Positions 23,496 through 59,312 of a stretch of DNA of 64,000 bases are shown one piece after another (positions within the stretch are counted from its first letter, which is position 1; the number at the start of each line of letters is the position of its first letter). Location: positions 1,984,001 through 2,048,000 of the forward strand of contig NZ_JAMZDZ010000001.1 of the NCBI RefSeq assembly GCF_024172085.1, given 5' to 3'. Below the pieces are notes generated by a model. That model saw nothing but the letters and a program-made list of their open reading frames with translations, searched no databases and had not been told where the DNA came from. The stretch comes from Hamadaea flava. Its GTDB lineage: Bacteria; Actinomycetota; Actinomycetes; Mycobacteriales; Micromonosporaceae. Made by a program: the position numbers and the translations under genes.

Positions 23496-24041
23496 CACGC
23501 CCTGACCGCCGAGGACTGAGTATCCGGTGGAGTACGGACACTGACCTGCGATGCTGTGCCGGTGACCGCCATCCACTCCGTGATCCTCGCGGGACTGTTC
23601 CCAGCGAAAGACCGCGACTACGCGGACCGCCTCGACGAGCTGCAAGCACAGGTCACGGCGCTGGGAGGTCAGGTACTGGGCCGATTCGTTCAGCGCCGGG
23701 GTGTCTCCGATGGCGGTGTACGACTGATGTCCTCTCCGCTGTCACGCCGTTTCCTCATCGGCCGGGGGAAGCTCGACGAGATCGTCACGACCCGTTCGAG
23801 TACGAACGCCGACGCCGTCGTCTTCATCAATGATCTGACCAGCTATCAGCGCCGGTGGCTATCAACCCGCCTCGGGTGCCCGGTGCTCACGCAGGCCGAC
23901 CTTGCACAAGGCTTGGCCTGCCCAACGGAGTCACAACATCGTGCCAGCCACGGCCATAAGCCCAATCGCCGCCGCGCGTAACAGCATCTCCTGACGAGCC
24001 GCGGTGCATCTGACCGCGACTCCTCAAACACTCACTCAGTT
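23496..24041 (+). mobile_element. Remnant of an IS5-like element (right end plus passenger gene)
   Basis: From about 23496 to the end at 24041 this segment matches 58830-59369, the 3' part of the intact IS at 57871-59369. It includes the HflX-N-like gene, the CCTGACGAGCCGCGGT trailer and a right terminal repeat CTCAAACACTCACTCAG (24023-24039). No transposase and no left terminal repeat were found, so it is a 5'-deleted copy. The segment 23227-23495 to its left (329-bp gap to the passenger gene) shows no convincing gene. Confidence 0.7.
23562..23981 (+). CDS. HflX N-terminal-domain-like protein, IS passenger, copy 1
   Basis: About 139 residues from GTG 23562. The sequence resembles the nucleotide/ribosome-facing N-terminal domain of the GTPase HflX: SVILAGLF, DRLDELQAQVTALGGQV, FVQRRGVSDGG, FLIGRGKLDEI, ADAVVFINDLTSYQRRWL. 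It stops before any GTPase motif, ending in a basic tail GHKPNRRRA. A second copy at 58893-59312 is about 85 percent identical, with many changes at third codon positions, suggesting that the protein sequence is conserved. It lies in an IS remnant; the second copy lies inside a complete IS. The role of a stand-alone HflX N-domain is unknown. Confidence 0.72.
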   Translation: MTAIHSVILAGLFPAKDRDYADRLDELQAQVTALGGQVLGRFVQRRGVSDGGVRLMSSPLSRRFLIGRGKLDEIVTTRSSTNADAVVFINDLTSYQRRWLSTRLGCPVLTQADLAQGLACPTESQHRASHGHKPNRRRA

Positions 24042-25081: not shown

Positions 25082-25666
25082 ATGGTCCAAGCACGTCGCA
25101 ACGAGTCCGCACCCATCCCGACTGGAGACGTCATTCCCGGCGATCCACCGGTCCCGATCACCGTCTGGCACGAGGCCAGGGAACCCTCAGGCGAACTGGT
25201 TTCGTTCAGCCTCGCCCACCGGCTCATCATCAACATGACCCACCGCGGCCAGCTCATCATCGACATGACCGAGGGCACCCAGCTCGCCCGCGCCGTTCTC
25301 ATGACCGGCCGGCACAGCACGCTGCATGCCCCAACTGCCCTATCTACCGGAGCCGAACACGCCGCACTCATCGTCACCGGCTGGCCGGTCACCGACGTCG
25401 ACGCCCGGGACTTCTTCGACGTGGCAGACGATCGGCTTCTACCTGGCGGGTGCGTCGTGGTGGTCCTTCCGCACGCCGATCCGGCAGGGTATGCCGAGAT
25501 CGTCCGAGCCGCCCACGACGTCGGCCTGCGATATCTGCAACATATCGTCGTCGCGCATCAGCTCGACTCAGCAGGTCAGAGCCTCCAGGATGACGGAAGA
25601 CATCTCCGTATTCACACCGACCTGCTGCTGCTGACCGCCGAGCGGGAGCAGGACCGCGATGGATGA
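25082..25666 (+). CDS. Methyltransferase-like companion protein
   Basis: This 194-residue protein starts at ATG 25082. It has alternating strands and helices with LLPGGCVVVVLPHADPAGY (near 120), which resembles the post-motif-IV strand of SAM methyltransferases, and a central AALIVTGWPVTDVDARDFF in the place of a catalytic loop. No DPMCGSGT or TSPPY motif is present, so it is probably catalytically inactive or only distantly related. Its end overlaps the start of the active-looking methyltransferase gene by 8 bp, implying a functional pair such as a heterodimer or specificity subunit. I am not sure of the family. Confidence 0.6.
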   Translation: MVQARRNESAPIPTGDVIPGDPPVPITVWHEAREPSGELVSFSLAHRLIINMTHRGQLIIDMTEGTQLARAVLMTGRHSTLHAPTALSTGAEHAALIVTGWPVTDVDARDFFDVADDRLLPGGCVVVVLPHADPAGYAEIVRAAHDVGLRYLQHIVVAHQLDSAGQSLQDDGRHLRIHTDLLLLTAEREQDRDG

Positions 25667-26495
25667 ACCATCCGTCAGCTCGGTCTGGCTCACCTGCCAG
25701 CAGCCTGCCCGAGATCAGCGGCGCGGCCGATACGTACCGGAGACGTCGACACATCCCGCCAAGATGTTGCCAGCGCTGGCAGCGCACGCGATCGTCACCT
25801 ACACAGCTCCTGGGGACCTTGTTCTCGATCCCATGTGCGGATCAGGCACCACGCTCGTCGAAGCCGTGCACGCCGGCCGAAACGCGATAGGCATCGACAT
25901 CGAGCCCCGCTACACCGCGCTGGCGGAGGCCAACCTCGCGCTCGCCGCCTCGCAGGGTGCAAGCGGTGTTGGCCAGGCGGTAACCGGAGACGCGACGGCA
26001 ATGCCGTCACTGCTGCCCGCCTCGCTGCAAGGAACTGTCGGGCTCGTCCTGACGTCGCCGCCGTACGGACGCGCCACGCACGGTCTGGTGCGACTCACAG
26101 AGACCGGTGTCCGCAAGCACGACCACATGTACGGTGACCGCCAGATCGGTAACCTCGCCTACGCGGGCTGGGATGGTTTGCTTACCGGCTTTGCACAGAT
26201 CATGAGCGCGTGTGCAGCGCTGCTGCGGCCCGGAGGCACCGTCGTCATCACCTGCCGGCCCGTACGCCGGAAGCCCGACGACTTCATCGACCTGCCAGGC
26301 GAGCTACTTCGGATCGCCGCAAACGCCGGCCTCCAAACGGTGGACCGATGCGTGGCGCTGCTTGCCGCGGTTCGAGGAGACAAGATCGTGCACCGCGCAT
26401 CCATGTTCGGGCTCATGGCCGCGCGGCGGGCACGTGCTGACGGTATCCCCGCAGCGCTCGTCGCCCACGAGGACGTGCTGGTGCTGCGACGCTGA
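25659..26495 (+). CDS. DNA methyltransferase (N4/N6-type, TSPPY motif)
   Basis: This 278-residue protein has the SAM-binding motif DPMCGSGTTLVEA near residue 53 and IGIDIEPRY near 75. The catalytic motif TSPPYG is near 130, then a LRPGGTVVITCRPVR strand. The order (SAM motif before catalytic motif) fits the beta-type or TRM11-like amino-methyltransferases acting on DNA or tRNA. No restriction endonuclease is adjacent, so it is an orphan, perhaps protecting or marking the ICE. It overlaps the upstream companion by 8 bp. A hairpin (26502-26546) follows the stop. Confidence 0.82.
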   Translation: MDEPSVSSVWLTCQQPARDQRRGRYVPETSTHPAKMLPALAAHAIVTYTAPGDLVLDPMCGSGTTLVEAVHAGRNAIGIDIEPRYTALAEANLALAASQGASGVGQAVTGDATAMPSLLPASLQGTVGLVLTSPPYGRATHGLVRLTETGVRKHDHMYGDRQIGNLAYAGWDGLLTGFAQIMSACAALLRPGGTVVITCRPVRRKPDDFIDLPGELLRIAANAGLQTVDRCVALLAAVRGDKIVHRASMFGLMAARRARADGIPAALVAHEDVLVLRR

Positions 26496-36037: not shown

Positions 36038-36280
36038 GTGGCACCTCTCTCGAAGACTCAGCAGATGATCAACGACCTGACTGGCCAGATCACATCTGGG
36101 CAGCTCAAGCCGGGAGACCAGCTTCCGACCAACAACCAGCTAAGGAAGCAGTACGGCGTCTCGATCACCGTTGTCCGAGCCGCTCTCCAGTGGCTCAAAG
36201 CGCGCGGGCTCATCGAAGGCGTACATGGCGTCGGCGTATTTGTCACCAACATCCCAGAAGAACCGCCGAGTTCAGGCTAA
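36038..36280 (+). CDS. Short GntR-family regulator (HTH only)
   Basis: GTG 36038, 80 residues: a complete GntR winged helix (QMINDLTGQITSGQLKPGD, LPTNNQLRKQYGVSITVVRAAL, LKARGLIEGVHGVGVFV) without the usual effector-binding domain. Actinobacterial ICEs often carry such short or long GntR repressors near the integrase. It overlaps the end of the convergent nuclease gene by 9 bp. Confidence 0.85.
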   Translation: MAPLSKTQQMINDLTGQITSGQLKPGDQLPTNNQLRKQYGVSITVVRAALQWLKARGLIEGVHGVGVFVTNIPEEPPSSG

Positions 36281-36853
36281 TTCGTCGATTGTCGATGAGC
36301 CGGCGTCTGCTGGCCAGTCGCCGCGCGTCGGAGCCCCAAGCTGCCCCGTGGCGTAGGCGCGCAGGTAGCGGCGGTGAAGAAGCTGAACGAAGTCGGCGAT
36401 TCCTTCGAGCCGCCGGAGATCATCGCTGGTTACAACGATCATCTTGATACCCCGAGGCGCAGCGCCAATCCCCAACGCCTGCGAGTGTCGGCCATTAATG
36501 AGATCGCCCGTGACACCATTGGCTGCCACAAGAATGCCAAGTTCAACTGACCGACTAGCAAGAATATTGAAGAAGTATCCCACCGTCTGGCTGTCAGCAG
36601 GCTGGTCCCAGTTCTTGCACTCCACGAGGAAAATTGGTGGCAGGAGCCCAAGCCCCTCGGGTACCCGAAGATTGCCCACCGCGATGTCGATCTGTTCGGT
36701 ATCGAACACACTGGTAAGATCTCGTTCTACTAGGCAGCCCGGCACCTGGCCAAACAGGTAGCACACAAGATCCTCATAGGCTCTACCTTTTGCCTGGCTG
36801 TGCGGTGCTTTCTCGGCGGCCTTCAGATGCTCCGCAACGACTTGGGGCTTCAC
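36272..36853 (-). CDS. Predicted Mrr/PD-(D/E)XK nuclease, defence-like operon gene 2
   Basis: 193 residues from ATG 36853. Restriction-endonuclease-like core: glutamate in GRAYEDLVCYLFG (about 25), DIAVGN (about 57), then FLVECKNWDQPADSQTVGYF (about 75), i.e. D...ExK with trailing Q. A helical C-terminal part follows (DFVQLLHRRYLRAYATG). Its start lies 2 bp after the stop of the upstream gene, so the two are an operon. I infer a nuclease of a two-component defence or conflict system. No methyltransferase is paired with it. Confidence 0.75.
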   Translation of the reverse strand: MKPQVVAEHLKAAEKAPHSQAKGRAYEDLVCYLFGQVPGCLVERDLTSVFDTEQIDIAVGNLRVPEGLGLLPPIFLVECKNWDQPADSQTVGYFFNILASRSVELGILVAANGVTGDLINGRHSQALGIGAAPRGIKMIVVTSDDLRRLEGIADFVQLLHRRYLRAYATGQLGAPTRGDWPADAGSSTIDELA

Positions 36854-36855
36854 GC

Positions 36856-37734
36856 TTACGCTCCATGGACAGCGCGGTTGCGGGCGTCGCGCAAGATTGA
36901 CTCAAGCCTTCCGGCGCGCACCACTTCCTGGAGCTGTGTAAGTGTCAGCAGCACGATTCCGCGTTGCGTCACGGTGGTCGCGTCATGTACGGGCCGGTCG
37001 GTAACCAGCAGACCGAGATCGGCGCGGGTCCTCACTACGTGCGATGACAGTTGGCTCACAGCGTGTTCCAGTTGCTGCTCCGGTCTCACCGTCTTGACCT
37101 CGACCACCACAACGATGGCTTTTGCGGGATCACCGATCGAGAATGCGAGATCAACTCCGTCGTCGATTCCGAGTCGACGACGCGGTTCGCCTCGGGCCAG
37201 CATCGACGCGGATCCTCGCAGTAGATCGGCCACCTGCCATTCGAGCCGAGACCCAGTTTGCTCTGGAGGAGGTGCAGTTTCGAGTTCCGCTGTCCTAGCG
37301 TGCCTCTTTAGGTCGAACCAGTGCTCAGCCAGGCGCGGCCGAGGTTGTCGATACTCCGCTGCACGAACGAACATCCCCACGTGCAATCGAAGAGTATCGA
37401 TATCCGATAGCCCGGCGCGCACGTACTGCTGACCAGACAGAGCCGGCGGAAGCTCGTGGCCCCGAGGAACTATCGTCAGGAGCGGAATGTCGGTGCCAAG
37501 GCAGATGCCGGCCTCAACCATCAGAGCAGACCAGCCCGAGGCCTCGTTACCACCGGGCGGCAGAATTGCGATGGCGACGCCGAGGTCCGACGGCATGCCC
37601 TTCGCCAAGTAGGCACCCGCACCAAGCATGCCGCTTATCACCACGCCGACGTTCTGCGAGGCCAAGATCTCTACGAGCGGCACCAATTCGGGGTCGTCGA
37701 CATCTCGAAACGTCGTGACAATTAGCGCTCGCAT
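36856..37734 (-). CDS. Rossmann-type sensor domain fused to PD-(D/E)XK nuclease, defence-like operon gene 1
   Basis: 292 residues from ATG 37734. The N-terminal ~125 residues look like a nucleoside-deoxyribosyltransferase/TIR-like Rossmann unit: LIVTTFRDVDDPEL, VISGMLGAGAYLAKG, VAIAILPPGGNEASGWS, then an MVEAGICLGTDIPLLTIVP helix-strand with a conserved-type glutamate. The C-terminal half (about 165-292) is a restriction-endonuclease fold: SRLEWQVADLLRG, DDGVDLAFSIGD, VVVVEVKTVRPEQQLEHAV (D...ExK...Q). Directly followed by the second nuclease gene (2-bp gap). Fusion of a nucleotide-sensing or cleaving fold to a nuclease, with a second nuclease, suggests a phage-defence module. The N-terminal assignment is tentative. 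Confidence 0.72.
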   Translation of the reverse strand: MRALIVTTFRDVDDPELVPLVEILASQNVGVVISGMLGAGAYLAKGMPSDLGVAIAILPPGGNEASGWSALMVEAGICLGTDIPLLTIVPRGHELPPALSGQQYVRAGLSDIDTLRLHVGMFVRAAEYRQPRPRLAEHWFDLKRHARTAELETAPPPEQTGSRLEWQVADLLRGSASMLARGEPRRRLGIDDGVDLAFSIGDPAKAIVVVVEVKTVRPEQQLEHAVSQLSSHVVRTRADLGLLVTDRPVHDATTVTQRGIVLLTLTQLQEVVRAGRLESILRDARNRAVHGA

Positions 37735-38180: not shown

Positions 38181-39218
38181 TTAGATCGATGCGGCGGGGT
38201 GAGCCTCATTAGTCAGTGCAGCAAGAGCACCGGCTACCTCCTGAACATCGGCTCTCACGTAGGTAGTGGTCGACCCAGCCTCTCCGCGAGCATCGGTGTG
38301 ACCTGCGAAGGCCCGAGCGACGGCATATCCGAAGTTCCGCTCAACCCAAGTCAGCACGGTGTGGCGGAGCCAGTGCGCGCTGATTCCCTGCGTGGCGACC
38401 CACGGTAAGTGCCGCCCGATCCGCACCCAGAGTCCGTCGTACCGGCGGTAGGTGATCGGGCGTCCGTTGCGATACCGCAGGAGTTGGCCGTCGTGGGGCG
38501 CTCCGCGGCGGAGCACGTGCTCTTGGAGATGCGCCATCAAGGTGGGCGACACCGGCTGCCAGCGCTCGGTTCCGCCCTTCTCTCGCAGCCGAATCAAGCA
38601 CTGCTGTTCGTCGAGGTCCATGGGGCGCAGCTTCAGGGCCCCGCCCCGGCGGCAGGCGGTCTCCAGGTGGATGCGGAGGAGCAGCGAGTCCAGCTCCGGG
38701 TCGTCTCCGGTGGTCGCGGCCACGGTGCTGATCTCAGCAAGCCGTGCATCCGGCAACGCCCGCCTCGTGCTGGGCAGCCGACGTGGTTTGGCGACCTTAA
38801 TCGCCGGGTTGTCCGCCTCGCGGATCAACCCGTTGGCGACGGCACGCCGGTAGAGACAGCGCAGTGCGGCGATGTAGTTTTCCACCGCTCCGCGGCCGTC
38901 TCGCCCGTTACGCCGAACGGTACGGCTGCTACGAATGCGTTCGCCGAACTGCTGAATTTCGAGCGGTGTCGGCTCGTCGATCGCCCGACTACCCCACGCA
39001 TCGACGACTCGATTCCAATAGCTCCCGTACGCTTTCAACGTCCCAGCCGACACGGTCGCAGCGACCTGCGGAACGAACTCGGCGAACGTCGGCACCGCCG
39101 TACCGGCGCCAGCGTCGCCGGCCGCGAGATCGCTGGGGCTCACGCCGAGATGCCGCAGCAGCACCAACGCCGCCTCGATCTCTGCCCGTCCCACGTGGCC
39201 TGCGCTAGTAACGGTCAT
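38181..39218 (-). CDS. Tyrosine recombinase/integrase 2 (complete)
   Basis: 345 residues. Core-binding domain at about 40-140 (TFAEFVPQVAATVSAGTLKAYGSYWNRV; GAVENYIAALRCLYRRAV). Catalytic residues: Arg in ETACRRGGALKL (about 190), HWLRHTV (about 285), AGHTD (about 308) and tyrosine in TTTYVRAD (about 320). ATG 39218 overlaps the AbrB-like stop (TGATG). The tRNA-Leu-derived repeat at 39762 lies 95 bp past the AbrB start, so this is the likely integrase acting at that att site, and probably the ICE integrase. Confidence 0.9.
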   Translation of the reverse strand: MTVTSAGHVGRAEIEAALVLLRHLGVSPSDLAAGDAGAGTAVPTFAEFVPQVAATVSAGTLKAYGSYWNRVVDAWGSRAIDEPTPLEIQQFGERIRSSRTVRRNGRDGRGAVENYIAALRCLYRRAVANGLIREADNPAIKVAKPRRLPSTRRALPDARLAEISTVAATTGDDPELDSLLLRIHLETACRRGGALKLRPMDLDEQQCLIRLREKGGTERWQPVSPTLMAHLQEHVLRRGAPHDGQLLRYRNGRPITYRRYDGLWVRIGRHLPWVATQGISAHWLRHTVLTWVERNFGYAVARAFAGHTDARGEAGSTTTYVRADVQEVAGALAALTNEAHPAASI

Positions 39219-40136: not shown

Positions 40137-41335
40137 TGTAGGGGCTCTTTACTTCCGTTACGGCGTTGACCAGCGGCAACGTGTGGTAGGTCGGTTGAGG
40201 AATGATGGTCTACTGTGTCGCCTCGCCTGCTGTATCTGATCTTCTGCCGGGTGCTCGGTTGGCTCGTGCTGCTCACGCGAACGACTGCCGCGAAGGACGC
40301 CGAGATCCTCGTTCTGCGCCACGAGGTAGCGATCCTGCGGCGGCGGCATCCGAGGCCGCGCTTGTCCTGGTCCGATCGTGCCGTCCTCGCGGCGTTGATC
40401 CGGCTGCTACCCAGGCAGTTGCAGGCCTGGCGGCTGGTGACCCCGGCGACCGTGCTCGCCTGGCATCGACGACTGGTCGCCAGGAAGTGGACCTACCCCA
40501 ACCGCGGTGGCCGGCCCCGCCTGAGCGGTGAACTCGCCGACCTGATCGCACGACTCGCGGACGAGAACTCGACCTGGGGCTACGTCCGGATCCAGGGCGA
40601 GTTGCGCAAGCACGGGCACCATGTCAGCCGGGCCGCCATCCAGCGACTACTGCGCGGACGGCGCATCCCGCCCGCGCCACAGCGTGCGCAGGCCACGTGG
40701 CGGCAGTTCCTGCGTACCCAGGCGGAGACGGTGCTGGCCTGCGACTTCCTGCATGTCGACTGCGCGGTGACGCTCAAGCGGGTGTACGTGTTCTTCGTGA
40801 TCGAGGTGGCGAGCCGCTATGTCCACGTGCTGGGTGTCACGACGAACCCCGACGGAGCCTGGACCGCGCAGGCTGCCCGCAACCTCCTGATGGACCTCGG
40901 CGACCACGCGGACAGGTTCGGGTTCCTTGTTCGCGACCGCGGCGGCCAATTCACCAACATGTTCGACGCGGTCTTCACCGCCGCCGGCATCGAAGTGATC
41001 AAGACCCCGCCGCGCTGTCCACGGGCCAACGCCTACGCCGAACGATGGGTCAGGACACTACGCAGCGAGCTCACCGACCGGATGCTCATCTTCGGCCAAC
41101 GACACCTGCGCCATGTCCTGGCCGAGTACGTGTGACGCACTACAACCACAGTCGGCCGCACCGGGCCCTGGATCTGTCACCGCCACGCCCACCGGCCACC
41201 GTCATCGATCTTGATAAGCGGCGGCGGATACGCCGAAGACCGATCCTCGGTGGGCTGATCAACGAGTACGAACGAGCCGCATAGATCATCAAGAAGCCGC
41301 AGGTCACCACAGGTACGAGGTTATGAGCCCCTACA
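40137..41335 (+). mobile_element. Insertion sequence A (IS481/IS3-like DDE type)
   Basis: Ends are TGTAGGGGCTC (40137-40147) and its exact complement GAGCCCCTACA (41325-41335); 1199 bp. Contains one transposase, frameshifted. Closely related to copy B (42862-44038). Confidence 0.85.
40215..41284 (+). pseudogene. IS A transposase, frameshifted near the 3' end
   Basis: Reads in one frame from 40215 to the stop at 41135 (rve/DDE integrase core: ACDFLHVDCAV, FLVRDRGGQF, CPRANAYAERWVRTL). Compared with the intact copy at 42925, two bases are gained just after GAGTACGTG (about 41132), so the last ~50 residues (HYNHSRPHRALDLSP) are in another frame. Confidence 0.85.
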
Positions 41336-42861: not shown

Positions 42862-44038
42862 CGTCCGTTGTGGCGCTGACCAGCGGTGACATGGCAGGTC
42901 GGGCTGGGGGGATGATGGTGCATTGTGTCGCCTCGTCTGCCGTACCTGATCTTCTGCCGGGTGCTGGGTTGGCTGGTGCTGATCACCCGAACCAGTGCTG
43001 CCAAGAACGCCGAGATCCTTGTGCTACGGCACGAGGTGGCGCTCCTACGGCGGCAAGGCGCGAAGCCGCGCTTGAGTTGGCCTGACCGTGCCGTCCTCGC
43101 CGCGTTGATCCGGTTGCTGCCCAAGCAGTTGCAAGCGTGGCGGCTGGTGACCCAGGCGATGGTGCTGACCTGGCATCGTCGCCTTGTCGCGAGAAAGTGG
43201 ACGTATTCCAACTACGCCGGGCGACCGCCGGTGAGCGCGGACCTCGCCGATCTGATCAGACGGCTCGCCGTCGAGAATCCATCCTGGGGCTACGTCCGGA
43301 TCCAGGGTGAACTGCGTAAGCTCGGCCATCACGTCAGCCGTACCACCATCCAGCGACTACTACGCCGCCGCCGCATCCCACCGGCACCGCAGCGCGCGCA
43401 GACCACATGGCAACATTTCCTGCGCACCCAGGCGCAGACGGTGCTGGCCTGCGACCTCCTGCACGTCGACTGCGCGCTCACCCTCAAACGCGTGTATGTG
43501 TTCTTTGTGATGGAGGTCGGGACCCGCTACGTTCACGTGCTGGGAGTCACGACCAACCCCGACGGGGCCTGGACCGCGCAGGCGGCCCGCAACGTGCTGA
43601 TGGACCTCGGTGAGCGCACCGGTAGGTTCCTCATCCGCGACCGCGGCGGCCAGTTCCCGAACGTGTTCGCCGCGATCTTCACCGGTGCCGACATCGAAGT
43701 GATCAAGACCCCGGCGCGCTGCCCGCGGGCGAACGCCTACGCCGAACGGTGGGTGAGAACACTACTCAGCGAACTCACCGACCGGATGCTCATCTTCGGG
43801 CAGCGACATCTTCGCCACGTCCTGGCCGAGTACGTGCGACACTACAACCACAGCCGGCCGCATCGGGCCCTTGACCTGTCACCGCCACGCCCACCGGCCA
43901 CCGTCATCGACCTTGCCGAACAGCGGCGGATACGCCGAAAACCGATCCTCGGCGGGCTGATCAACGAGTACGAACGCGCCGCGTAGATCATCAAGAAGCC
44001 GCAGGTCACCGCAGGTACGGGGGTATTGAGCCCCTACA
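42862..44038 (+). mobile_element. Insertion sequence B, left terminal repeat lost
   Basis: Homologous to IS A from about 42862 (CCGTTGTGGCGCTGACCAGC) to the right end GAGCCCCTACA (44028-44038). The left TGTAGGGGCTC is missing. The right end lies within the third recombinase gene and supplies its stop codon. Confidence 0.82.
42925..43986 (+). CDS. IS B transposase (DDE, intact)
   Basis: 353 residues from GTG 42925. N-terminal HTH region (NAEILVLRHEVALLRRQ; RRIPPAPQRAQTTW) and rve core: first Asp in VLACDLLHVDCAL, second in RFLIRDRGGQF, Glu in NAYAERWVRTLLSE; C-terminal YNHSRPHRALDLSPP. Complete reading frame. Since the IS lacks its left terminal repeat it is probably not mobile by itself but could act on copy A. 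Confidence 0.88.
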   Translation: MSPRLPYLIFCRVLGWLVLITRTSAAKNAEILVLRHEVALLRRQGAKPRLSWPDRAVLAALIRLLPKQLQAWRLVTQAMVLTWHRRLVARKWTYSNYAGRPPVSADLADLIRRLAVENPSWGYVRIQGELRKLGHHVSRTTIQRLLRRRRIPPAPQRAQTTWQHFLRTQAQTVLACDLLHVDCALTLKRVYVFFVMEVGTRYVHVLGVTTNPDGAWTAQAARNVLMDLGERTGRFLIRDRGGQFPNVFAAIFTGADIEVIKTPARCPRANAYAERWVRTLLSELTDRMLIFGQRHLRHVLAEYVRHYNHSRPHRALDLSPPRPPATVIDLAEQRRIRRKPILGGLINEYERAA

Positions 44039-46541: not shown

Positions 46542-49500
46542 TTAGGGCATGTTATACACCTGGATGTGAGCGAACCCGCTCGCGCTTAAAATGTAAACAT
46601 CGATCTTGTACGGCACGTAGTCGACAGCGTTGGAGCTGTATCGGGGAATGGCGGCGTAGAAGACGCGTTCGTTGCGGTCCAGGCGGGCCCTGACTTGCTG
46701 TTCTACGCCTTCCATGCCGGTCCAGCCGTTGGCATGGGGATACATGGGGACGATGTTTTCCAGGTCACTGGAGCCGCCGAACTGGCGAGCAATCAGATGT
46801 CCGCGCTCGTGGGTGCCTGACAGGTAGCCCCTCGGGGTTCGTGGGGCACGGCTGTCGATGGCGGTGGCGCTGGGCGTTAGGCAGGCGAATGCTCCGCGCG
46901 CTCGGCCGTGGTCGTCCAGTGGCAGGTACTCGATCGTCGACAGTGAGTTCGTCTGCCCGGCGCAGCCACGTTCCTTGTCCTCGATCTCGGTATCGGTCAC
47001 GTAGCGGGGATCGGGTGCCGAATCGCCGCCGAGCATCATCAGCAGAACCAGTGTCGGGGCCATTCGGAGCCACAGGGGTGGGACGGGTGGGGGTTCCACG
47101 GGCGCCGCCGGTGGTGGCGCGAACGGCAGCGGTGGCAGAGCGGGCGGGGCGAGCGGCGGAGCAACGAGCTGGGGTCGCTGGCCTTCACAGCTCGCGCTCA
47201 TCATGTTGGTCGCGGTGCAGAGGGTTGGTCGGCTGCCGCCGGCTCCGCCGTCGTCGAACCGGTGGCCATCGAGTTCAACGTTGGTAATTGGATTGCCGGC
47301 CCCGAACGCGTACCGGTTGCCGGTCCAAGGGTCCTGGCAGAGGTTGAGGTCGGATAGCGCACCGTTGTACGCGTCGCGGGTGAGGAACCTGTTGAGGCCC
47401 GGGTCATAGTCACGGAAGCCCATGTCGTAGGTCCCGCTTTGCTGGTCCCAACGTTTTGAGTTGAACCGGTACGGGTTGTACGGCTCCTTAGTCGGGTCCG
47501 TGGGGTTGGGCTTGTCGATTCCGGTGAATTGGGAGTCGTCGTTGGCTCCGTACGCGGTGTAGCCGTAGGTGGCCTTGGTGTCGCCAGAGTTGTCGGTTAG
47601 CTGCTCTACGTCGGTGTGCGGGTTGTATCCGTAGTAGCCGTCTTCGGATCCGCCGCTATCGCTGGTCGTGGTTTGGGAAAGCCGCTCACCCCAGGGCGAG
47701 TACTGGTAGGACTTCGAGATCTTCCCGGCGGATTCTTCGTTGAGCACGTCCGTCGTCAGGCCGAGGTAGTTGAATGCGGTGGTCTTCTCCTTCGACGTAC
47801 CGACATCCGTGGTCTTGGCCGCTGTGCGATCGAGTGGATCGAAGGTCGAGCGGGTGACGGCGGTGCTGGTGCCGAGGTTCTTGCGGTTTTCCACGATGTG
47901 GTCGAAGCCGTCGTAAATGTTGCGCTCGATGAGCGTGCCGTTGGCGGTAACGGTGTCGAGCCGCCCGAAGGGGTCGTAGTTGTAGGCAGAGGTCGTGCCG
48001 GCGCTTGTGGTGGTGATGAGCCGGTTGCGGTTGTAGGTGGACGTCGTGGTGATGCCCTTGATCGTCTGAGATACCACGTTGTTGTTTGCGTCGTGCACGT
48101 ACGTCTCGGATCCGGCGCCGTCCCCAGTAGTGGTGGAGTTGGCAATGCGGTCGCGTGGGTCGTAGGTGTAGTCGGCTGTGGTGGTCAGGTACACGCCGTG
48201 GTTGTCGGCGTTCATCTTCTTGGTGACCTCGTGCGTTCGGTTGCCGTTGAGGTCGTAGTCGATGGCGTGGTCAGAGACGAGTGTGCCGTCGGGCCTCTTC
48301 TCGGTTTGGGTCCTCAGGAGTCCGTCGAAGAAGTATGTGTATGCGACGGTGTTGCCGTTGCCCTTGGCTTCGCTCAGCCGTTCGGTCTTGTCGGTGTAGG
48401 TGAACGTAGTGATCTTGGGAGCGGGGTCTGAGGCCGACGTTCCGTTGGTGACTTTGCTCAGCAAGTCGCGCGCATCGTATTCATACGAGTTGTACGCGGT
48501 GTCGTGGGTTTGGGTGGCGGGTGCGCCGTTCTCGTTGTAGGTGAACGAGCTTGTGTTCAGAAGTGTCGACCCATGTCTTTCGGCAACGGTCTTGACTTGA
48601 TTCAGCTGCGTGTAATCGACGGTGTAGGCGTCGACCCGCGCACTGGGGGACGCATCGGCGATCGTGATCAGGTTTCCGTTGGGATCGTAGAGATAGCTGT
48701 AGTCGTGCTTCTCGCTGTCGGTCTCCCCGGTGTTGTCGCGCACCAGCTTGACCGCGTCGGCGACGACTGTGCCGCCGGCTTGGTCGGACAGCGTGATCTT
48801 CTTGTCTGAGCCCTCATTGAACGGGTACGAGCCGAGGCTGGTCCAGGCGCCGCCGCCGGTGGATTGGTTGACGGTCTTGGCTGTGGTGCCACTCGCGTTC
48901 TCGACGGCGAATTTGGCGTCGGTCGCAGCTCCGCTGACCTGTGGGTAGCGTACGAAGACCTCATAGGTGCCGGTCTGCGGGATGTTGAGCTTCCAGGCGA
49001 ACGTGTTGGTGCCTGAGCCGGCGGCATGCGTCTGGTGGTCGTAGCCGTACTGCCCACCCGTGGCCGCTGTGGGCCAGGTGCCAGTAGCGGTCACATTCTG
49101 CGCGTCGGCGTTGTCGACAAGCACAACCTGCTTACCCACCGGGACACCGTCATCTGCCCGGGTCTTCTGCTTCCCGTCTGGGTAGTACTGCCATGTCATC
49201 GTGCGCGTAGAGGAACCTCCCGCGCTCGTCAGTTGCCGTAGCGTCTGCTTGCCAAGATTGTCATAGTCGTACGAGGTCACGATGTCCCACGAGTCGGTCG
49301 ACGTGCGCGTCCATCCGTTGTCGTAGTACGTGAGAGCGGTGTCGTTGCGTACTGCCTGACCGTTAGACGGAGGCGCTGACACTCTGACTAGGCGACCGGC
49401 ATCGTCGTACGAGTAGAAGGTCGAGTCGGCGGACGCATAGCGAGAGTCGTCCTTGTCGTAGGCCGAGCGGACTTCCTTCTTGCGGTTGAGCTGGTCGTAG

Positions 49501-52500
49501 ACGATGACTTCGGCGAAATCGTCAGGGTCATCCGTCGTGGCGCCCCCGCGTGGCGTGGTGACCTTGACGATGTTGCCCGCCTGGTCGTATTCGGTGCGTG
49601 TAGTTCTGTACTGCAAACTGCCCGCGTTGACGTGCGGCACCTTCAATTCGATGGGCTTGCCGCGGGCGTCGAGGATCTTGATGGTTGTGTTGCCAGCCTG
49701 ATCGGTGGTGGCGATGATCAGGCCGTCCTTGTCATAGGTGTTCGTCGTGAACTTGCCGATCGCGTCGGTGACCTTCGTGCCGCGGTGTGCGGTGTCGTAC
49801 TCGTACTTGCGGGTGAAGTCGTTGGGATCCGCGGATGCGTTTGTCCTCGCGTCGATCATCGTGGCCACGTTGCCGACGTTGTCGTAGGTGTATGTGAGCT
49901 TCTTTCCGTCGGCGTTGGTGATCTCGGTGAGCTGATAGAGCTCGTCGTATGCGTTGATCGTGCTGTAGTCGCCCACGGTTGGAGTCAGGTTTCCCATCGG
50001 CTCCGTGGTAGTGATCAAGTTGCCGACCCTGTCGTACGTATAGGAGGTCTTGCGCTCAGGATCGCCGGCATTGTCCAGCGGAGCCGTCGAGGAGGTGACG
50101 CGATCTGCGTTGTCGTACACCGCGGTGCTGGTAGCCCCGTTAGCGGCAACGCTGACGGTGACGTTGTCATTGGCGTCGTACGCGGGTGCCGGCGTGGTGA
50201 TCAATTTGCCAGCAGCTTGATCCTTGGGTTCAGTCTTGACGAGTGGACGGCCGAAGGCGTCGTAGTCTTGCGTCGTCTCCTTGCCCAACGGGTCGGTGAC
50301 CGTGCGGACGTTGCCTCGCACGTCGTAGGCGAAGTGAGTCGTCTTCGTCAGTGCGTCCGTGATTACCGTCGGGTACCCGTTGGGGTCGAAGCCGCTGTAG
50401 CTGGTGGTGTTCCCATTTGGATCCTTCGCTGATTGCAGCTGGCCCCACGAGTCGTAGGTGTTCACGGTGGTGTAGTCGCCGTCAGCGGGGGTGCTGGTGC
50501 CGATGGGATCAGTCACTGTGGTGAGGTTGCCCTCGGTGTCATATCCGAAGGTCCAACGCCGGCCCTCCGAGGATTGCTTGGCGATCAGGTCGGCCCAGTG
50601 GCCGTTGAGCCCGGTCTGGTACGCGAAGGTGGTGCCGGGCCAGCCGTTCTTGACCTGCTCGGCGTCCTTGATCGCGGTGGGGTAGCCGGTCTTCGGGTCG
50701 TACGCCCAGGTAGACACGGCGCCGTTGGCTTCTTCAAGCCGAATGACGTTGTGGTCGGTATCCCAGCCGAGCTTGGTGGTTTCGTTCTTGGCGTTGGTGG
50801 TCTGGAACGGCCGTCCGAATCCGTCGGTCAAGCGTGTAGTCGAGTGATGTTCCGGGTCGACGACCGCTGTGGAGATTGTGTCACCGGCCTGCCCGTCGGG
50901 ATCGGTGTAGGCGAACGAGGTCGGGTTGCCGAGCCGGTCGGAGTAGCTCTTGGTCGCCCAATGGAATTTGGGGTCGTCGTCGGGCAGGTCATAGTAGGCG
51001 ATGCCCGTGCCATGCCCGCGTGGGTCGGTGACCTTGACGAGCTTGACGTTCTTGTTGCCTTGGGTCATGTCGTATTGGAAGCCGAACACCTTCGGCTGGG
51101 CAGCGCCCGCTCCATCGACAATCTCGCCGAGTAGTCCCTTGTCGGTGTAGGTGAGGTTCAGCGTGCGGCCTGATATGTCGGTGATCGCGCGTACATGGTC
51201 AATGATCTTGGGGTTGGTCAGATTGTTCTGCCCGGTGACCTTGGTCCACGTTGTGTCGTTGACGTAATCGTAGGTGTCGCCTTTGGCCCAGTAGGCGATG
51301 GTGAGGGTCTGCCGTCCGGCGGCGTCGGTGATGTATCGCAGGAACTTTGTGGGTTTGTTCTGCGATCGGCGGACCTCGTATGTGAAGGTCATGAGGTTGC
51401 CGTTGTTATCTTCAATCGACGACAGATACCCGTCACAGTCGTAGTAGAAGACGGTCCGGTCCGGCCGGGTGATCGTCCAGGCGCGAGACTGCTCGGTCTG
51501 CGGCGTGCATGGTACGAGCTGCTGCAGGTACAGGTGCACGCCCTTGGGTGAGATCCACTCCCCCGCTGTCGCATTCCATGTAAATGTGTGTGTTGTGCCG
51601 TCGCCGTCGGTGAGTTTCACCGTCGTCGGGTTCGGGTTGGGGTGGAAGTCCAAGGGGGTGCCTAGGCGCATCAGCGACGACGCCTGAACCGACCATCCGT
51701 AACCGGCGACGCTGTCGGTGGTGTCCTGCGAGTTGTAGGCCATCCGCACGAACGTCGACAGTCCGCGCGACGGATTGGTGAACGCATTGTAGGACCATAC
51801 GGTGTTTCCGGCGTGCAGATTGTTCATCAGCGTGGAGCCCGCGCCGGTGTTGGTCCCGGTGTAGGCGTAAAACTTCTCCAGACCCAACTGGTCTGAGGTC
51901 GGCTCTTCCACCGCGACCTTCTGGTCGAGTGGCGCGATGCCGTTACTGGCGGACAACCATTGGCCGGTGGTCTTGTTGTGCAGCTCCCAGCGCAGCACGT
52001 AGTCGGTGCGTTTGTTCGCCGGATCCGACGACGCCGGGGTCTTGACGGTGGCGGCGACGTCGGCCGTCGACCCGGCGGTGATGTCGCGGGGCAACGCGGT
52101 CGCGACCTGGTTGCCGCTGGTGGTGACGTCGGTGCCGTCGGGCAGCGTCCAGTGGTAGGACAGCTCCCAGTTCGCGGCCGACCACGCCACGCCCGTGGGA
52201 TTGGATACTGAGACGGTGACGGGGTAGGTGCTGGCGGGTGTCATCAGCCCGGCCGTTGCCGGCGCGTAGTAGGTCGACTCGGCTGTGGGCTCGAGGTAGG
52301 TGACCCGCAGTGTGGGGCGCAGCATCGGCTCGGCGGCCTCGCTGGACAGCAGCATGTTGCGCTGGGTCGACACCGACTCGTCGCGCATCTTGAGCAGGAA
52401 GCCGTAGTTCGACGTCGGCGTTGTCAGCCAGCTCTTGACGGTGTTGGTGACCGTCCACGACTCCCACTCGGGGTCGTTGGTGAATCCGTCGAAGTAGGAC

Positions 52501-55142
52501 TCGGCGGTCGGGTCGTAGTCGCCACCAGGCGTGGTCCAGGCCGTGCCTGAGGCGGCGCTGTTCCAGGTGGCTGTAGTCTCGTCGAAGGCACGGGTGAGCC
52601 GGTGGACGTCGGCCTTGCCGTTGGTAACGTCCCCGGGATACAGATAGGTGTTCCACATCTCCAGTTCGGCGCCGACCACGTTCGCATTCGCCGGGACGCC
52701 CGTCAGATTGGTGAATTTCACCAGGCCCCGGGTGTCGCCGTACACGCTGGAGTTGTTGCCCGGGGACACGTATGGATCGCCGTCGTAGACGTTGACGTTG
52801 GTGGTCGGCTGCGCCGCCGACAGCGTCGTGTCAGGCACCTGGTTGGCCGACGCTTCCCGGAACACCTTGGTGATGCGACCAGCCTTGGGCAGCAGCACAC
52901 CCTGGGTCGGCCCGGCGATCACTTGACCGTCGGCGGTCTTCACCGCGATCATGTAGTAGTAGAAGTGCCGCTTGAGCGGATCTGTCTCGTCCGTCGGCGT
53001 CGGCGTCGCGGTCGTGTCCTGATAAGCCAGCGACGTCTTGCCCACCGGGGCGACCAAGGTCGCGGCTGACGGGACGAAAGTCTGGTTGACGCTGCGGTGC
53101 ACCTGGTACTCGACGATGTCGTCCCCGGTCGCCGTCGACGGGTCGGTGTAAGCCGGCCATGTCAAAGCTGCGCCTGTCGCAGTGATGGTGGTCGGTGGAT
53201 CCACTGCGACGGCCGGTCGGCCGAAGGTCACCACCAGCTTCGGCAGGTTGTAATCACGGCGGTTGTTGTCGTACGCGTACTCCGACGCCTCGTAGACCGG
53301 ACCACCCCGGCCCTTGTCGGCCTCGTCGACGGCCTTGACCATGAAGCCGTAGTTGGGCTGCGTGCCGTTGACCCAATCCTGCACGACGTTGCGCACGGGG
53401 AAGCTGCTCCAGACGCTGGAGACGCCACGCTTCTTGGTGGTGGTGCCCCACTTGGTGAACCGCACGGCGTCGGCGATGACGGACTTGTTCGCCACGTCGC
53501 CGAGCACGACCTTGCCGGTGGTGCCCGCCGCGAACGGATGCACCCCAAGAGTCTTCCACACGCCGTCGGCCGCACCGGTCTGGTCCACCGTGTACGCCTT
53601 CGACCCGCCGTTGTAGAACACCGTGTACGGGGTCGCGGTCGACCGGTCGGACTCCGACGTGAAGTGCACCTCGACCTGATAGTCCCCGGCCTCGGTGATC
53701 GTCGGCGTCCACGTGTGCGTGTTGCCGGCCGTCGCGTCGTTGTTGTACCGGTAGTCCGCGCCGATCGCCTTGGCCGTCAACGCGTTCGCCGAGTACGGCC
53801 AGGTGCCCGAGAACGAGGTCCCGGCGTCGCCGTCGTCGACCACGATCACGTTCCCCGCGGGCTGCGCCGCCATCGCCGTGTTGATACTCCCCCAGGTCGC
53901 CGTCGACTCGTCCCAGGAACTGGTCACCCGACGCGCTTCGAGAGCCACGTCGTACGACCAGTCCCAGTGCGTCTGCGAGTAGTACAGCTGCAACTGCGCG
54001 TCGTCGATCGGCGTACCAGCCGGAATGCCCGTCAGCGGGAACCGCAGCAGCGACCGCCACGTGTTGACCGACTCGGTGCCGACCCGCAACTGGTAGGTGC
54101 CGTTATAGTTCGCGTTCTGAGATCCCGAGTAGATCTCGACGTCCTGCCCGTCCGACGGCACCGGCTGGATCTTGACCGTGGGGTCGATCGTCACCGGATA
54201 CCGCCGCGCCGGGTCGGCCAACCAGGCCGCGTCCGGCACGATCGTGATCTCCGCCGTCGAACCGTGCTGCGTCAGCGTCTGCGCCACGCTGCGCGACATC
54301 GTCTTACCGACGTCGGACTTCGCGTCGTCCTTCGAGTCGAACATGTACGGCGCGGGCATCACGAACAGCACCCGGCCGCCGTCCGGCCCGGTGAACTCGA
54401 TCAACCCATCGGCCGCCTGGCGCGCAATCAAACCGCCGGTCTTGATCGACATCGTCACCGCGAACGGCTCCACCGGCGCCTTCGCCAGGACGAAGTCCTC
54501 CTGCAGCGTCGTCGGCGTTACTTCGTAGACCACGTCCGCGCCACTCGCCGCGCCCGGGTACGTGATCGTCGAGCCGGCGACCTTCGGCGTCAGGTCCGCG
54601 GGCACTCCCGCCAGACCCAGCTCGAGGTGCCGGCCACCGGACTCGAACCGCACCAGCTTGTCGCTGCGGTCACCGAAACGCGAGGTGAACGCGTTGGCGA
54701 CATTCTGGTACGCCCAACCGCCCGACCCGGTACGCACGGTGAGGTCGATCGGCTTCCAGGTACGACCGTCGCGGTAGTTCAGCGGAGTCTGCGACACCTC
54801 GGCCTGCATCCGGCCGTCCGACAGCTGATAGAACCGCGCGTTCTGCGTACGCCGAGCGGTCAGCTCCTTGACCCGCTTGGCCGGCGCCCACGCCTTGCCC
54901 TTCGTCGCCGGGTCGTCGTGCGGCACCCCGTCCAGCTTGAGGTCGACCGACTTCCGCGGCTCCTTCGGCCGAGGCGCGGTGCTCACCCCGAACAAGCGGC
55001 GAACCGGATCCCAGAACCCGCCCGGATCATCCGCGGGCTGCTGGGCACTCGACGGTGCGGCGAACGCCGGCACACCCGAACCCATGATCATGACGATGCT
55101 CAATGCGCCGGCCAACAGCCAGCGACAGCTCCCGTTTCGCAA
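46542..55142 (-). CDS. Secreted RHS/YD-repeat polymorphic toxin with C-terminal nuclease
   Basis: 2866 residues from TTG 55142 (GGGGAGG 8 bp upstream) with a signal peptide (LLAGALSIVMIMGSGVPAFAA). Domains in order: N-terminal region (about 40-330); DNRLRE-type beta domain (about 335-425); golvesin-like lectin domain (about 430-570); a second DNRLRE block (about 730-950); DUF6531-like start and many YD repeats (about 1150-2500) with a second golvesin-like insert; RHS core with YRFNSKRWDQQSGTYDMG and FLTRDAYN (about 2560-2600). The last ~170 residues contain THERGHLIARQFGG and SDLENIVPMYPHANGW, matching DNA/RNA non-specific endonucleases. The next gene is the probable SUKH immunity. Confidence 0.9.
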   Translation of the reverse strand: MRNGSCRWLLAGALSIVMIMGSGVPAFAAPSSAQQPADDPGGFWDPVRRLFGVSTAPRPKEPRKSVDLKLDGVPHDDPATKGKAWAPAKRVKELTARRTQNARFYQLSDGRMQAEVSQTPLNYRDGRTWKPIDLTVRTGSGGWAYQNVANAFTSRFGDRSDKLVRFESGGRHLELGLAGVPADLTPKVAGSTITYPGAASGADVVYEVTPTTLQEDFVLAKAPVEPFAVTMSIKTGGLIARQAADGLIEFTGPDGGRVLFVMPAPYMFDSKDDAKSDVGKTMSRSVAQTLTQHGSTAEITIVPDAAWLADPARRYPVTIDPTVKIQPVPSDGQDVEIYSGSQNANYNGTYQLRVGTESVNTWRSLLRFPLTGIPAGTPIDDAQLQLYYSQTHWDWSYDVALEARRVTSSWDESTATWGSINTAMAAQPAGNVIVVDDGDAGTSFSGTWPYSANALTAKAIGADYRYNNDATAGNTHTWTPTITEAGDYQVEVHFTSESDRSTATPYTVFYNGGSKAYTVDQTGAADGVWKTLGVHPFAAGTTGKVVLGDVANKSVIADAVRFTKWGTTTKKRGVSSVWSSFPVRNVVQDWVNGTQPNYGFMVKAVDEADKGRGGPVYEASEYAYDNNRRDYNLPKLVVTFGRPAVAVDPPTTITATGAALTWPAYTDPSTATGDDIVEYQVHRSVNQTFVPSAATLVAPVGKTSLAYQDTTATPTPTDETDPLKRHFYYYMIAVKTADGQVIAGPTQGVLLPKAGRITKVFREASANQVPDTTLSAAQPTTNVNVYDGDPYVSPGNNSSVYGDTRGLVKFTNLTGVPANANVVGAELEMWNTYLYPGDVTNGKADVHRLTRAFDETTATWNSAASGTAWTTPGGDYDPTAESYFDGFTNDPEWESWTVTNTVKSWLTTPTSNYGFLLKMRDESVSTQRNMLLSSEAAEPMLRPTLRVTYLEPTAESTYYAPATAGLMTPASTYPVTVSVSNPTGVAWSAANWELSYHWTLPDGTDVTTSGNQVATALPRDITAGSTADVAATVKTPASSDPANKRTDYVLRWELHNKTTGQWLSASNGIAPLDQKVAVEEPTSDQLGLEKFYAYTGTNTGAGSTLMNNLHAGNTVWSYNAFTNPSRGLSTFVRMAYNSQDTTDSVAGYGWSVQASSLMRLGTPLDFHPNPNPTTVKLTDGDGTTHTFTWNATAGEWISPKGVHLYLQQLVPCTPQTEQSRAWTITRPDRTVFYYDCDGYLSSIEDNNGNLMTFTYEVRRSQNKPTKFLRYITDAAGRQTLTIAYWAKGDTYDYVNDTTWTKVTGQNNLTNPKIIDHVRAITDISGRTLNLTYTDKGLLGEIVDGAGAAQPKVFGFQYDMTQGNKNVKLVKVTDPRGHGTGIAYYDLPDDDPKFHWATKSYSDRLGNPTSFAYTDPDGQAGDTISTAVVDPEHHSTTRLTDGFGRPFQTTNAKNETTKLGWDTDHNVIRLEEANGAVSTWAYDPKTGYPTAIKDAEQVKNGWPGTTFAYQTGLNGHWADLIAKQSSEGRRWTFGYDTEGNLTTVTDPIGTSTPADGDYTTVNTYDSWGQLQSAKDPNGNTTSYSGFDPNGYPTVITDALTKTTHFAYDVRGNVRTVTDPLGKETTQDYDAFGRPLVKTEPKDQAAGKLITTPAPAYDANDNVTVSVAANGATSTAVYDNADRVTSSTAPLDNAGDPERKTSYTYDRVGNLITTTEPMGNLTPTVGDYSTINAYDELYQLTEITNADGKKLTYTYDNVGNVATMIDARTNASADPNDFTRKYEYDTAHRGTKVTDAIGKFTTNTYDKDGLIIATTDQAGNTTIKILDARGKPIELKVPHVNAGSLQYRTTRTEYDQAGNIVKVTTPRGGATTDDPDDFAEVIVYDQLNRKKEVRSAYDKDDSRYASADSTFYSYDDAGRLVRVSAPPSNGQAVRNDTALTYYDNGWTRTSTDSWDIVTSYDYDNLGKQTLRQLTSAGGSSTRTMTWQYYPDGKQKTRADDGVPVGKQVVLVDNADAQNVTATGTWPTAATGGQYGYDHQTHAAGSGTNTFAWKLNIPQTGTYEVFVRYPQVSGAATDAKFAVENASGTTAKTVNQSTGGGAWTSLGSYPFNEGSDKKITLSDQAGGTVVADAVKLVRDNTGETDSEKHDYSYLYDPNGNLITIADASPSARVDAYTVDYTQLNQVKTVAERHGSTLLNTSSFTYNENGAPATQTHDTAYNSYEYDARDLLSKVTNGTSASDPAPKITTFTYTDKTERLSEAKGNGNTVAYTYFFDGLLRTQTEKRPDGTLVSDHAIDYDLNGNRTHEVTKKMNADNHGVYLTTTADYTYDPRDRIANSTTTGDGAGSETYVHDANNNVVSQTIKGITTTSTYNRNRLITTTSAGTTSAYNYDPFGRLDTVTANGTLIERNIYDGFDHIVENRKNLGTSTAVTRSTFDPLDRTAAKTTDVGTSKEKTTAFNYLGLTTDVLNEESAGKISKSYQYSPWGERLSQTTTSDSGGSEDGYYGYNPHTDVEQLTDNSGDTKATYGYTAYGANDDSQFTGIDKPNPTDPTKEPYNPYRFNSKRWDQQSGTYDMGFRDYDPGLNRFLTRDAYNGALSDLNLCQDPWTGNRYAFGAGNPITNVELDGHRFDDGGAGGSRPTLCTATNMMSASCEGQRPQLVAPPLAPPALPPLPFAPPPAAPVEPPPVPPLWLRMAPTLVLLMMLGGDSAPDPRYVTDTEIEDKERGCAGQTNSLSTIEYLPLDDHGRARGAFACLTPSATAIDSRAPRTPRGYLSGTHERGHLIARQFGGSSDLENIVPMYPHANGWTGMEGVEQQVRARLDRNERVFYAAIPRYSSNAVDYVPYKIDVYILSASGFAHIQVYNMP

Positions 55143-58810: not shown

Positions 58811-58892
58811 TCACTGCCTCGTGGCTCACGCGCTGACCGTCGAGGCCTGAATATCAGGTGGCGTGTGGGCGCTGACCTGCGATGCTGTCCCG

Positions 58893-59312
58893 GTGACCGG
58901 CATCCACTCCGTGATCCTCGTGGGCCTGTTCTCGGCGAAAGACCGCGACTACCAGGACCGTCTCGACGCGCTGCAAGCACAGGTCACGGCACTAGGAGGC
59001 CAGGTACTGGACCGGTTTGTCCAGCGCCGGGGCGTCTCCGATGGCGGCGTACGACTGATGTCCGCGCCGCTATCGCGCCGCTTCCTCATCGGCCCAGGAA
59101 AGCTCGACGAGATCGTCACGACCCGTACGAGTAGGAACGCCGACGCCGTCGTCTTCATCAACGACCTGACCAGCTATCAGCGCCGGTGGCTGTCAACCCG
59201 CCTCGGGTGCCCCGTGCTCACCCAGGCCGACCTCATACACGGCCTGACCAGCCCAACCCAGTCACAACATCGCGCCGGCCACGGCCACAAGCCCAACCGC
59301 CGCCACGCGTAA
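58893..59312 (+). CDS. HflX N-terminal-domain-like protein, IS passenger, copy 2
   Basis: 139 residues from GTG 58893 (GTG 58863 upstream is possible). Nearly the same protein as 23562-23981: SVILVGLFSAKDRDYQDRLD, FVQRRGVSDGGVRLMSAPL, ADAVVFINDLTSYQRRWLST. It lacks the GTPase domain of HflX and ends with GHKPNRRHA. Lies wholly inside the IS terminal repeats. Confidence 0.75.
   Translation: MTGIHSVILVGLFSAKDRDYQDRLDALQAQVTALGGQVLDRFVQRRGVSDGGVRLMSAPLSRRFLIGPGKLDEIVTTRTSRNADAVVFINDLTSYQRRWLSTRLGCPVLTQADLIHGLTSPTQSQHRAGHGHKPNRRHA

Follow-up and report, generated by a model that had tools for sequence, protein, structure and literature searches.

Nucleases joined to a sensor, for example Can2/Card1 and Cap4, are already known. 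Can2 and Card1 are CRISPR ancillary nucleases made of a CARF sensor and a PD-(D/E)XK nuclease, in which the CARF domain keeps the nuclease off until a ligand is bound, and Cap4 of CBASS couples a PD-(D/E)XK nuclease to a nucleotide sensor. The present analysis concerns a pair of adjacent genes (hereafter A and B) of Hamadaea flava that, judged from sequence, looks like an unnamed system of defence against viruses and other invading DNA. The original prediction knew of no described antiphage system with this combination. None was found in PADLOC (2023), where the best match over the window pair and 10 relatives has an E-value of 3.8e-6, or in the mostly open-access literature searched, including PMC9503650, PMC7159879, PMC10853773 and PMC9122126, whose consulted passages do not describe the pair. 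Since the two genes are annotated apart in both records inspected and have no strong match in PADLOC (2023), defence surveys may well miss this module.

The window, i.e. the whole stretch of 64,000 nucleotides that was analysed, corresponds to positions 1984001-2048000 of a single-contig genome of 8.86 Mb, in which a whole-genome search found one copy of the pair. Both ORFs lie on the reverse strand where they had been predicted: gene A (36856..37734, ATG start, 292 aa) encodes a Rossmann (TIR/NDT-like) domain fused to a PD-(D/E)XK nuclease, and gene B (36272..36853, GTG start, 193 aa) a stand-alone Mrr-like PD-(D/E)XK nuclease, with a gap of 2 bp between them (bases 36854-36855). Their G+C content by codon position is gene-like (0.73/0.46/0.66 for A and 0.69/0.44/0.63 for B), and that of the pair (0.605) is below that of the window (0.65), which fits cargo. 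As originally proposed, the pair is flanked by a GntR regulator gene (36038-36280, forward strand) and a tyrosine integrase gene (38181-39218, reverse strand); no cognate methyltransferase, as expected for a type II restriction-modification system, lies next to it, the methylase seen in the window being an N6_N4_Mtase (25659-26495). Elsewhere, the window carries a TraG-like ATPase, PrgI, Replic_Relax, a TrwB-like coupling protein and another tyrosine integrase gene (1-880) cut by its edge. It bears parts of an actinomycete conjugative element, and the A-B pair is on it. Our own HMMs for pAgo, Aga, GajA and dGTPase have no match in the window.

Other genes of the window were also recorded. A 1313-aa protein (59396-63337, reverse strand) with TPR repeats and PIN-TPR-GreABC (PF20698, above cut-off) is a second candidate conflict gene, whose N-terminus resembles, by eye only, a DUF4297-type nuclease. 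A single ORF of 2849 aa (46542-55091, reverse strand) with a secretion-signal-like start perhaps encodes an RHS/polymorphic-toxin type protein. Two ORFs of the same orientation, about 1.8 kb apart (40215-41135 and 42925-43986, forward strand), have near-identical starts, the first being an IS-type rve transposase. Two short ORFs (23556-23981 and 58863-59312, forward strand), alike by eye, are perhaps duplicate HflX fragments, the first matching GTP-bdg_N.

In window A, PF05014 (Nuc_deoxyrib_tr) has no match up to an E-value of 5 and neither have the TIR families (CAP12/PCTIR PF10137, TIR_2 PF13676); the matches to PF04471 (Mrr_cat) of A (19.2 bits) and B (18.7 bits) are both under the Pfam cut-off of 21. 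NCBIfam gave nothing for the window pair, and a PDB sequence search with A found no relative. Therefore, the domain names of the original prediction rest on relatives, motifs and fold models, which support them, and not on the window proteins themselves, which stay under the Pfam cut-offs or have no match. Among 10 diverse relatives of A, three exceed a Pfam cut-off at the N-terminus (PF05014 in L056 and L063; PF10137 in L045, where TIR_2 equals its cut-off), one exceeds that of Mrr_cat at the C-terminus, and one (L029) has no Pfam match. Mrr_cat is above cut-off in nine of 10 B or B-like relatives. The AlphaFold2 single-chain model of A (mean pLDDT 83.4, pTM 0.51) has a flavodoxin-like alpha/beta domain and a nuclease-type domain separated by a low-confidence linker near residues 132-160, and that of B is a compact domain (pLDDT 90.3, pTM 0.86). 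The first of these domains, the presumed sensor (residues 1-128, 37351..37734), has pLDDT values of 77-98 by ten-residue block, and its flavodoxin-like Rossmann fold agrees with the NDT/TIR-like domain that had been announced; the second (residues 157-292, 36859..37266) is Mrr-like. Foldseek matches are weak for both models. For A (best E 2.3e-4) they include generic receiver/flavodoxin folds first, then TIR domains (RPS4/RRS1, SARM1), the nucleases MspJI and BamHI and, among the weaker ones, Can2; for B (best E 2.9e-4) they include EcoT38I, RNA polymerase subunit 5, Can2 and Cdn1. Profiles in relatives, motifs and models agree in assigning both C-terminal parts to PD-(D/E)XK, as predicted. 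In a profile-profile comparison with hhalign, B aligns as a homologue of the nuclease domain of A (98% probability, E 2.3e-13); this homology could reflect common membership of a superfamily, not a duplication within the system.

A leave-out profile made from 22 non-actinobacterial A proteins was tested on 22 actinobacterial A proteins against 1000 shuffles. The C-terminal domain was found in all 22 (window E 1.1e-12, weakest 2.6e-4, best shuffle 2.2), and the N-terminal half beat the best shuffle in 15 (window E 0.0057 versus 0.34 for the shuffle). The other seven (L014, L020, L024, L025, L029, L032 and L033) did not beat the shuffles, so their N-terminus is presumably either fast-evolving or another domain.

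The recurrence of the pair was examined by scanning a genome collection with a pattern derived from the B alignment, which gave 145 stretches, 84 of them confirmed; the best 80 of these and three loci from a scan of IMG/VR with the B alignment make a set of 83 (80 from genomes and three from viral contigs). These loci were scored with A and B profiles that include the same sequences, and the figures are therefore a presence count, not a blind test. A full-length A lies directly upstream of B, abutting or overlapping it, in 45 of the 83 loci (43 full-length pairs if three like copies from Streptomyces apocyni are counted once). The two genes are thus conserved together, a point on which the original prediction had agreed beforehand to be judged. 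Five loci have a partial A: it is split between frames in L036, reaches contig ends in L046 and L053, is reduced to the nuclease domain in L062 and has another N-terminus in L091. Eight others have a good B match without A upstream; L018 lacks A, L022 has a partial B, L047 is at a contig end, L061 has an extended B, and in L057, L064, L065 and L079 a B-like domain ends a longer protein. The remaining 25 show weaker B-like domains, mostly in longer proteins. Chance ORFs are ruled out by the same two genes occurring in the same order in 45 of 83 loci, and a peculiarity of one element by the recurrence of the pair in other genomes.

Searches were also started from A. None of 54 pattern stretches was confirmed when window A was the single query of genome contigs. 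In 250 genomes of the family, the single sequence of A found two matches, both beside B, and B found seven, including two without A (L006, and L008, which is the same place as L018) and one (L010) with an A-type nuclease behind another N-terminus. Twenty whole genomes were chosen because they carry the pair; with the A profile, each of them yielded a single full-length A, adjoining the only strong B. In a phylum-wide profile sample of 346 genomes, full A and full B were found only in G000, with partial A in 34 others and partial or longer B-like matches in 17 others; one full pair in such a sample indicates that the module is sparse. Three plasmid records cover at least 80% of A, and both of those inspected have B next to A; in two records the genes are annotated as "nucleoside 2-deoxyribosyltransferase" and "hypothetical protein" or as "hypothetical protein" and "restriction endonuclease". 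Rhizobium plasmids give short N-terminal matches to A, and the one inspected (L146) has no B match; no plasmid matches window A or the A of L051. With the A of Allomuricauda, 19 plasmid records cover 27-47% of the protein, mostly the N-terminal domain, which therefore occurs in other proteins too. Neither window A nor the A of Pantoea has a match in 50,697 phage records; among the three B-like loci from IMG/VR, L092 has a full A and L091 the A-type nuclease with its different N-terminus. A search of E. coli with the DNA of the Pantoea pair found nothing, a DNA search that remote copies could escape.

The 44 aligned A-B pairs, window pair included, come from six phyla (Actinomycetota, Pseudomonadota, Bacillota, Bacteroidota, Cyanobacteriota and Methylomirabilota) and, doubtfully, from Campylobacterota. 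This last label is due to one record titled Helicobacter (L051), probably mis-binned since its B is very near that of Kangiella in the B tree. The contig in question is titled Helicobacter pylori PMSS1 MAG, and its pair is very close to those of Kangiella and of a viral contig (L051, L054 and L092). In the same tree, the nearest rows to the window are a Micromonosporaceae MAG and Frankia. Pairwise distances of the N-terminus of A, the nuclease domain of A and B are correlated (r close to 0.84 in all comparisons, a value that none of 2000 permutations attained), a correlation to which shared host-lineage descent contributes.

The D...ExK motifs foreseen in both proteins were read from the translations of window A (D195...E212-V-K214) and window B (D56...E78-C-K80), so that all D...(E/Q)xK active-site residues are present. 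In B, Asp56 (36686..36688), a predicted metal ligand, and Glu78-Cys79-Lys80 (36614..36622) are kept in all 44 rows. In A, Asp195 (37150..37152), likewise a predicted metal ligand, is also kept in 44 rows; in the motif Glu212-x-Lys214 (37093..37101), Glu212 is kept in 37 rows and replaced by Q in seven, and Lys214 is kept in 42. The E-x-K of the A-type nuclease domain of L010 looks degenerate; given this and the loss of Lys214 in two of 44 rows, the nuclease domain of A may sometimes be structural only.

The part in front of this domain is variable. L010 and L091 retain B and the A-type nuclease domain behind an N-terminus unlike that of A, which in L091 consists by eye of pentapeptide-like repeats. 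Thus, the two nucleases form the constant core, and the variation falls at the position expected of a sensor. In L062 (2505-3575, forward strand), A lacks its N-terminus; an NDT/TIR-like domain (A3 match, model positions 33-108) is encoded by a distinct gene further downstream and is possibly a sensor that has split off. No natural A-B fusion, which would have spoken for a complex, was found in the 28 loci whose B-like ORFs were read; in these loci the longer B-like ORFs have different parts in front of B, such as response-regulator-like ones. In L057-L090, B-like Mrr domains stand behind many other parts, including uncharacterised N-termini of 370 aa in several Clostridia, and would belong to a wider family of possible sensor-nuclease fusions.

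The neighbourhood of the pair was analysed from the six nearest ORFs of 20 pair loci (120 proteins), and 20 other regions of the same contigs supplied 118 control proteins. At 1e-15, the neighbours matched 119 PADLOC models and the control 68; the best 25 of these 68 bear three names (PD-T4-6, PDC-S02 and mad6). Names for the neighbours were drawn from the best 25 of 119 models. At least nine of the 20 loci have a short Argonaute, Gabija, SduA, dGTPase or Dpd-like gene nearby: (i) REase- or TIR-type Aga with pAgo in L015, L052 and L058, (ii) GajA in L054 (with GajB) and L044, (iii) SduA in L029, (iv) a DpdB-like gene in L050, and (v) dGTPase in L027 and L048. The GajA of L044 and the dGTPases of L027 and L048 were placed by similarity to two members counted by PADLOC. 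Our own HMMs added a pAgo/Aga system in L025, giving a total of four in 83 loci versus none in 20 control regions; the pAgo of L052, which is the ORF after an Aga identified by PADLOC, helped to build the pAgo HMM. These short Argonaute systems (L015 4140-8516, L052 7065-13612, L058 7063-11596 and L025 6752-14183) are on the same strand as the pair in three of the four loci, with a gap of about 45 bp in L015, and their position beside the pair could mean a functional link. On an Agrobacterium plasmid, DEAD/DEAH helicase and DUF1837 genes, which we take to be the Hachiman combination, begin roughly 2.3 and 4.9 kb past B. CD-NTase is not among the families listed for the 120 neighbour proteins (best 25 of 119 and 25 of 89). 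It should also be emphasized that islands hold passengers too, which weighs against a defence reading drawn from neighbours.

From these data, we see an even chance that A and B form, as its two subunits, a single defence nuclease gated by a Rossmann sensor. B would be a small PD-(D/E)XK nuclease, and A would carry a homologous PD-(D/E)XK domain preceded by a Rossmann fold; the nuclease domains, being related, would pair as a pseudo-symmetric heteromer cutting DNA, and the Rossmann domain of A would keep the complex inactive as long as it has bound neither a nucleotide-type ligand nor any other sign of infection, a gating that we liken to that of the CARF domain in Can2/Card1. The conservation of two homologous nuclease domains next to each other suggests a heteromeric nuclease, from which we infer a physical complex, and we take DNA as the putative substrate, ligand gating as the putative control and an antiphage effect as the putative outcome. 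This reading is backed by the recurrence of the pair, the homology of the two nuclease domains, the co-divergence of the parts, the near-invariant nuclease residues, the swappable N-terminus, the defence genes nearby and the Can2 and Cdn1 fold matches; against it stand the weak Foldseek matches, the B genes without A (L006, L018) and the N-terminal fragments of A without B (L146). A bolder version, a widespread and undescribed immune module of two genes whose TIR/NDT-related domain has turned from enzyme into receptor and gates an obligate heteromeric nuclease of homologous PD-(D/E)XK subunits, is possible but rather doubtful.

The best surviving alternative, which we nevertheless consider unlikely, is a modification-dependent (type IV-like) restriction, in which A-B cuts modified foreign DNA and the Rossmann domain is structural or regulatory. 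MspJI, which cuts modified DNA, is among the fold matches of A, both nuclease domains belong with Mrr_cat, and among the families listed for the 120 neighbour proteins no methylase family occurs in two or more, a D12 methylase occurring in one. However, in the window pair, 10 relatives of A and 10 B-like relatives, Pfam shows no domain known to read modified bases, and the usual extra domain is Rossmann-like, replaced in L091 by pentapeptide-like repeats.

Still less likely is an enzymatic role of the TIR/NDT-like domain, which would hydrolyse NAD+ or nucleotides and thereby kill or starve an infected cell, the nucleases being mainly sensors or helpers. The catalytic residue would be Glu74 of A (37513..37515), whose column we take to be the catalytic one from NDT and SARM1 on the basis of its E-x-G context. 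The original prediction expected a conserved Glu here, and this part did not hold: the residue is E in the window and 27 other rows (28 of 44), D in six, R in six and Q in four, i.e. R or Q in 10 rows; without the seven rows that fail against the shuffles, it is E in 27, D in six and Q in four of 37. Since Glu occurs in only 28 of 44 rows, a sensor role fits better than a NADase/NDT enzyme; moreover, what stays constant is the set of nuclease residues, and the N-terminal domain is replaceable. An enzyme would agree with the NDT/TIR profile matches of the relatives, with the Glu of the window and 27 other rows, and with the kinship of TIR, DRHyd and SLOG domains, which PMC7159879 describes along with the proposal that they generate signals. 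Finally, it is improbable that the pair works for the mobile element (in its stabilisation, in competing with other elements or in DNA processing during transfer) and not for the defence of the cell. The window pair does adjoin the integrase and GntR genes of a conjugative element, and plasmids carry some of the relatives; however, the relatives have several kinds of known defence genes as neighbours.

A sensor-gated pair of nucleases would be of interest because the module occurs across several phyla, can be cloned whole owing to its small size and leads to sharp predictions for point mutants. If its TIR/NDT-like domain is a receptor, it would directly test how such folds change, in immunity, from producing nucleotide signals to reading them and back.

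Among known systems, there is weak similarity of window B (E 0.0045) and of B of L056 (E 3.8e-6) to the nuclease part of PDC-S02, a PADLOC candidate whose S we take to mean single-gene; however, the models concerned, of 334 and 346 positions, exceed B in length, align with it only by their end and have no partner like A. Short Argonaute systems (TIR- or REase-bearing Aga with pAgo) share TIR-like and PD-(D/E)XK domains with the pair and lie within 8 kb of it at four loci, whereas A and B have no Aga or pAgo match, and 79 of the 83 loci and the window are devoid of pAgo according to our HMM. With Mrr and type IV nucleases, the pair shares the Mrr_cat profile of its relatives and the D-(E/Q)xK motif of A and B, but it consists of two regularly paired nuclease genes with a Rossmann domain instead of a reader of modified DNA. 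The match above cut-off of the L045 relative to CAP12-PCTIR_TIR points to the TIR-bearing CAP12/Pycsar effectors, and the PD-(D/E)XK nuclease beside a presumed sensor to CBASS Cap4; unlike them, A-B has no SAVED match, its TIR-like part is fused to a nuclease and no constant third gene was seen. Overall, Can2/Card1 offer a Rossmann-type N-terminal domain joined to a PD-(D/E)XK nuclease, as in A, and Can2 and Cdn1 are among the fold matches of B and Can2 among the weaker ones of A. The A-B pair differs from them in having no CRISPR gene among the neighbour matches listed, an N-terminus of A that is TIR/NDT-like and not CARF by any match, and a second nuclease gene as its usual partner.
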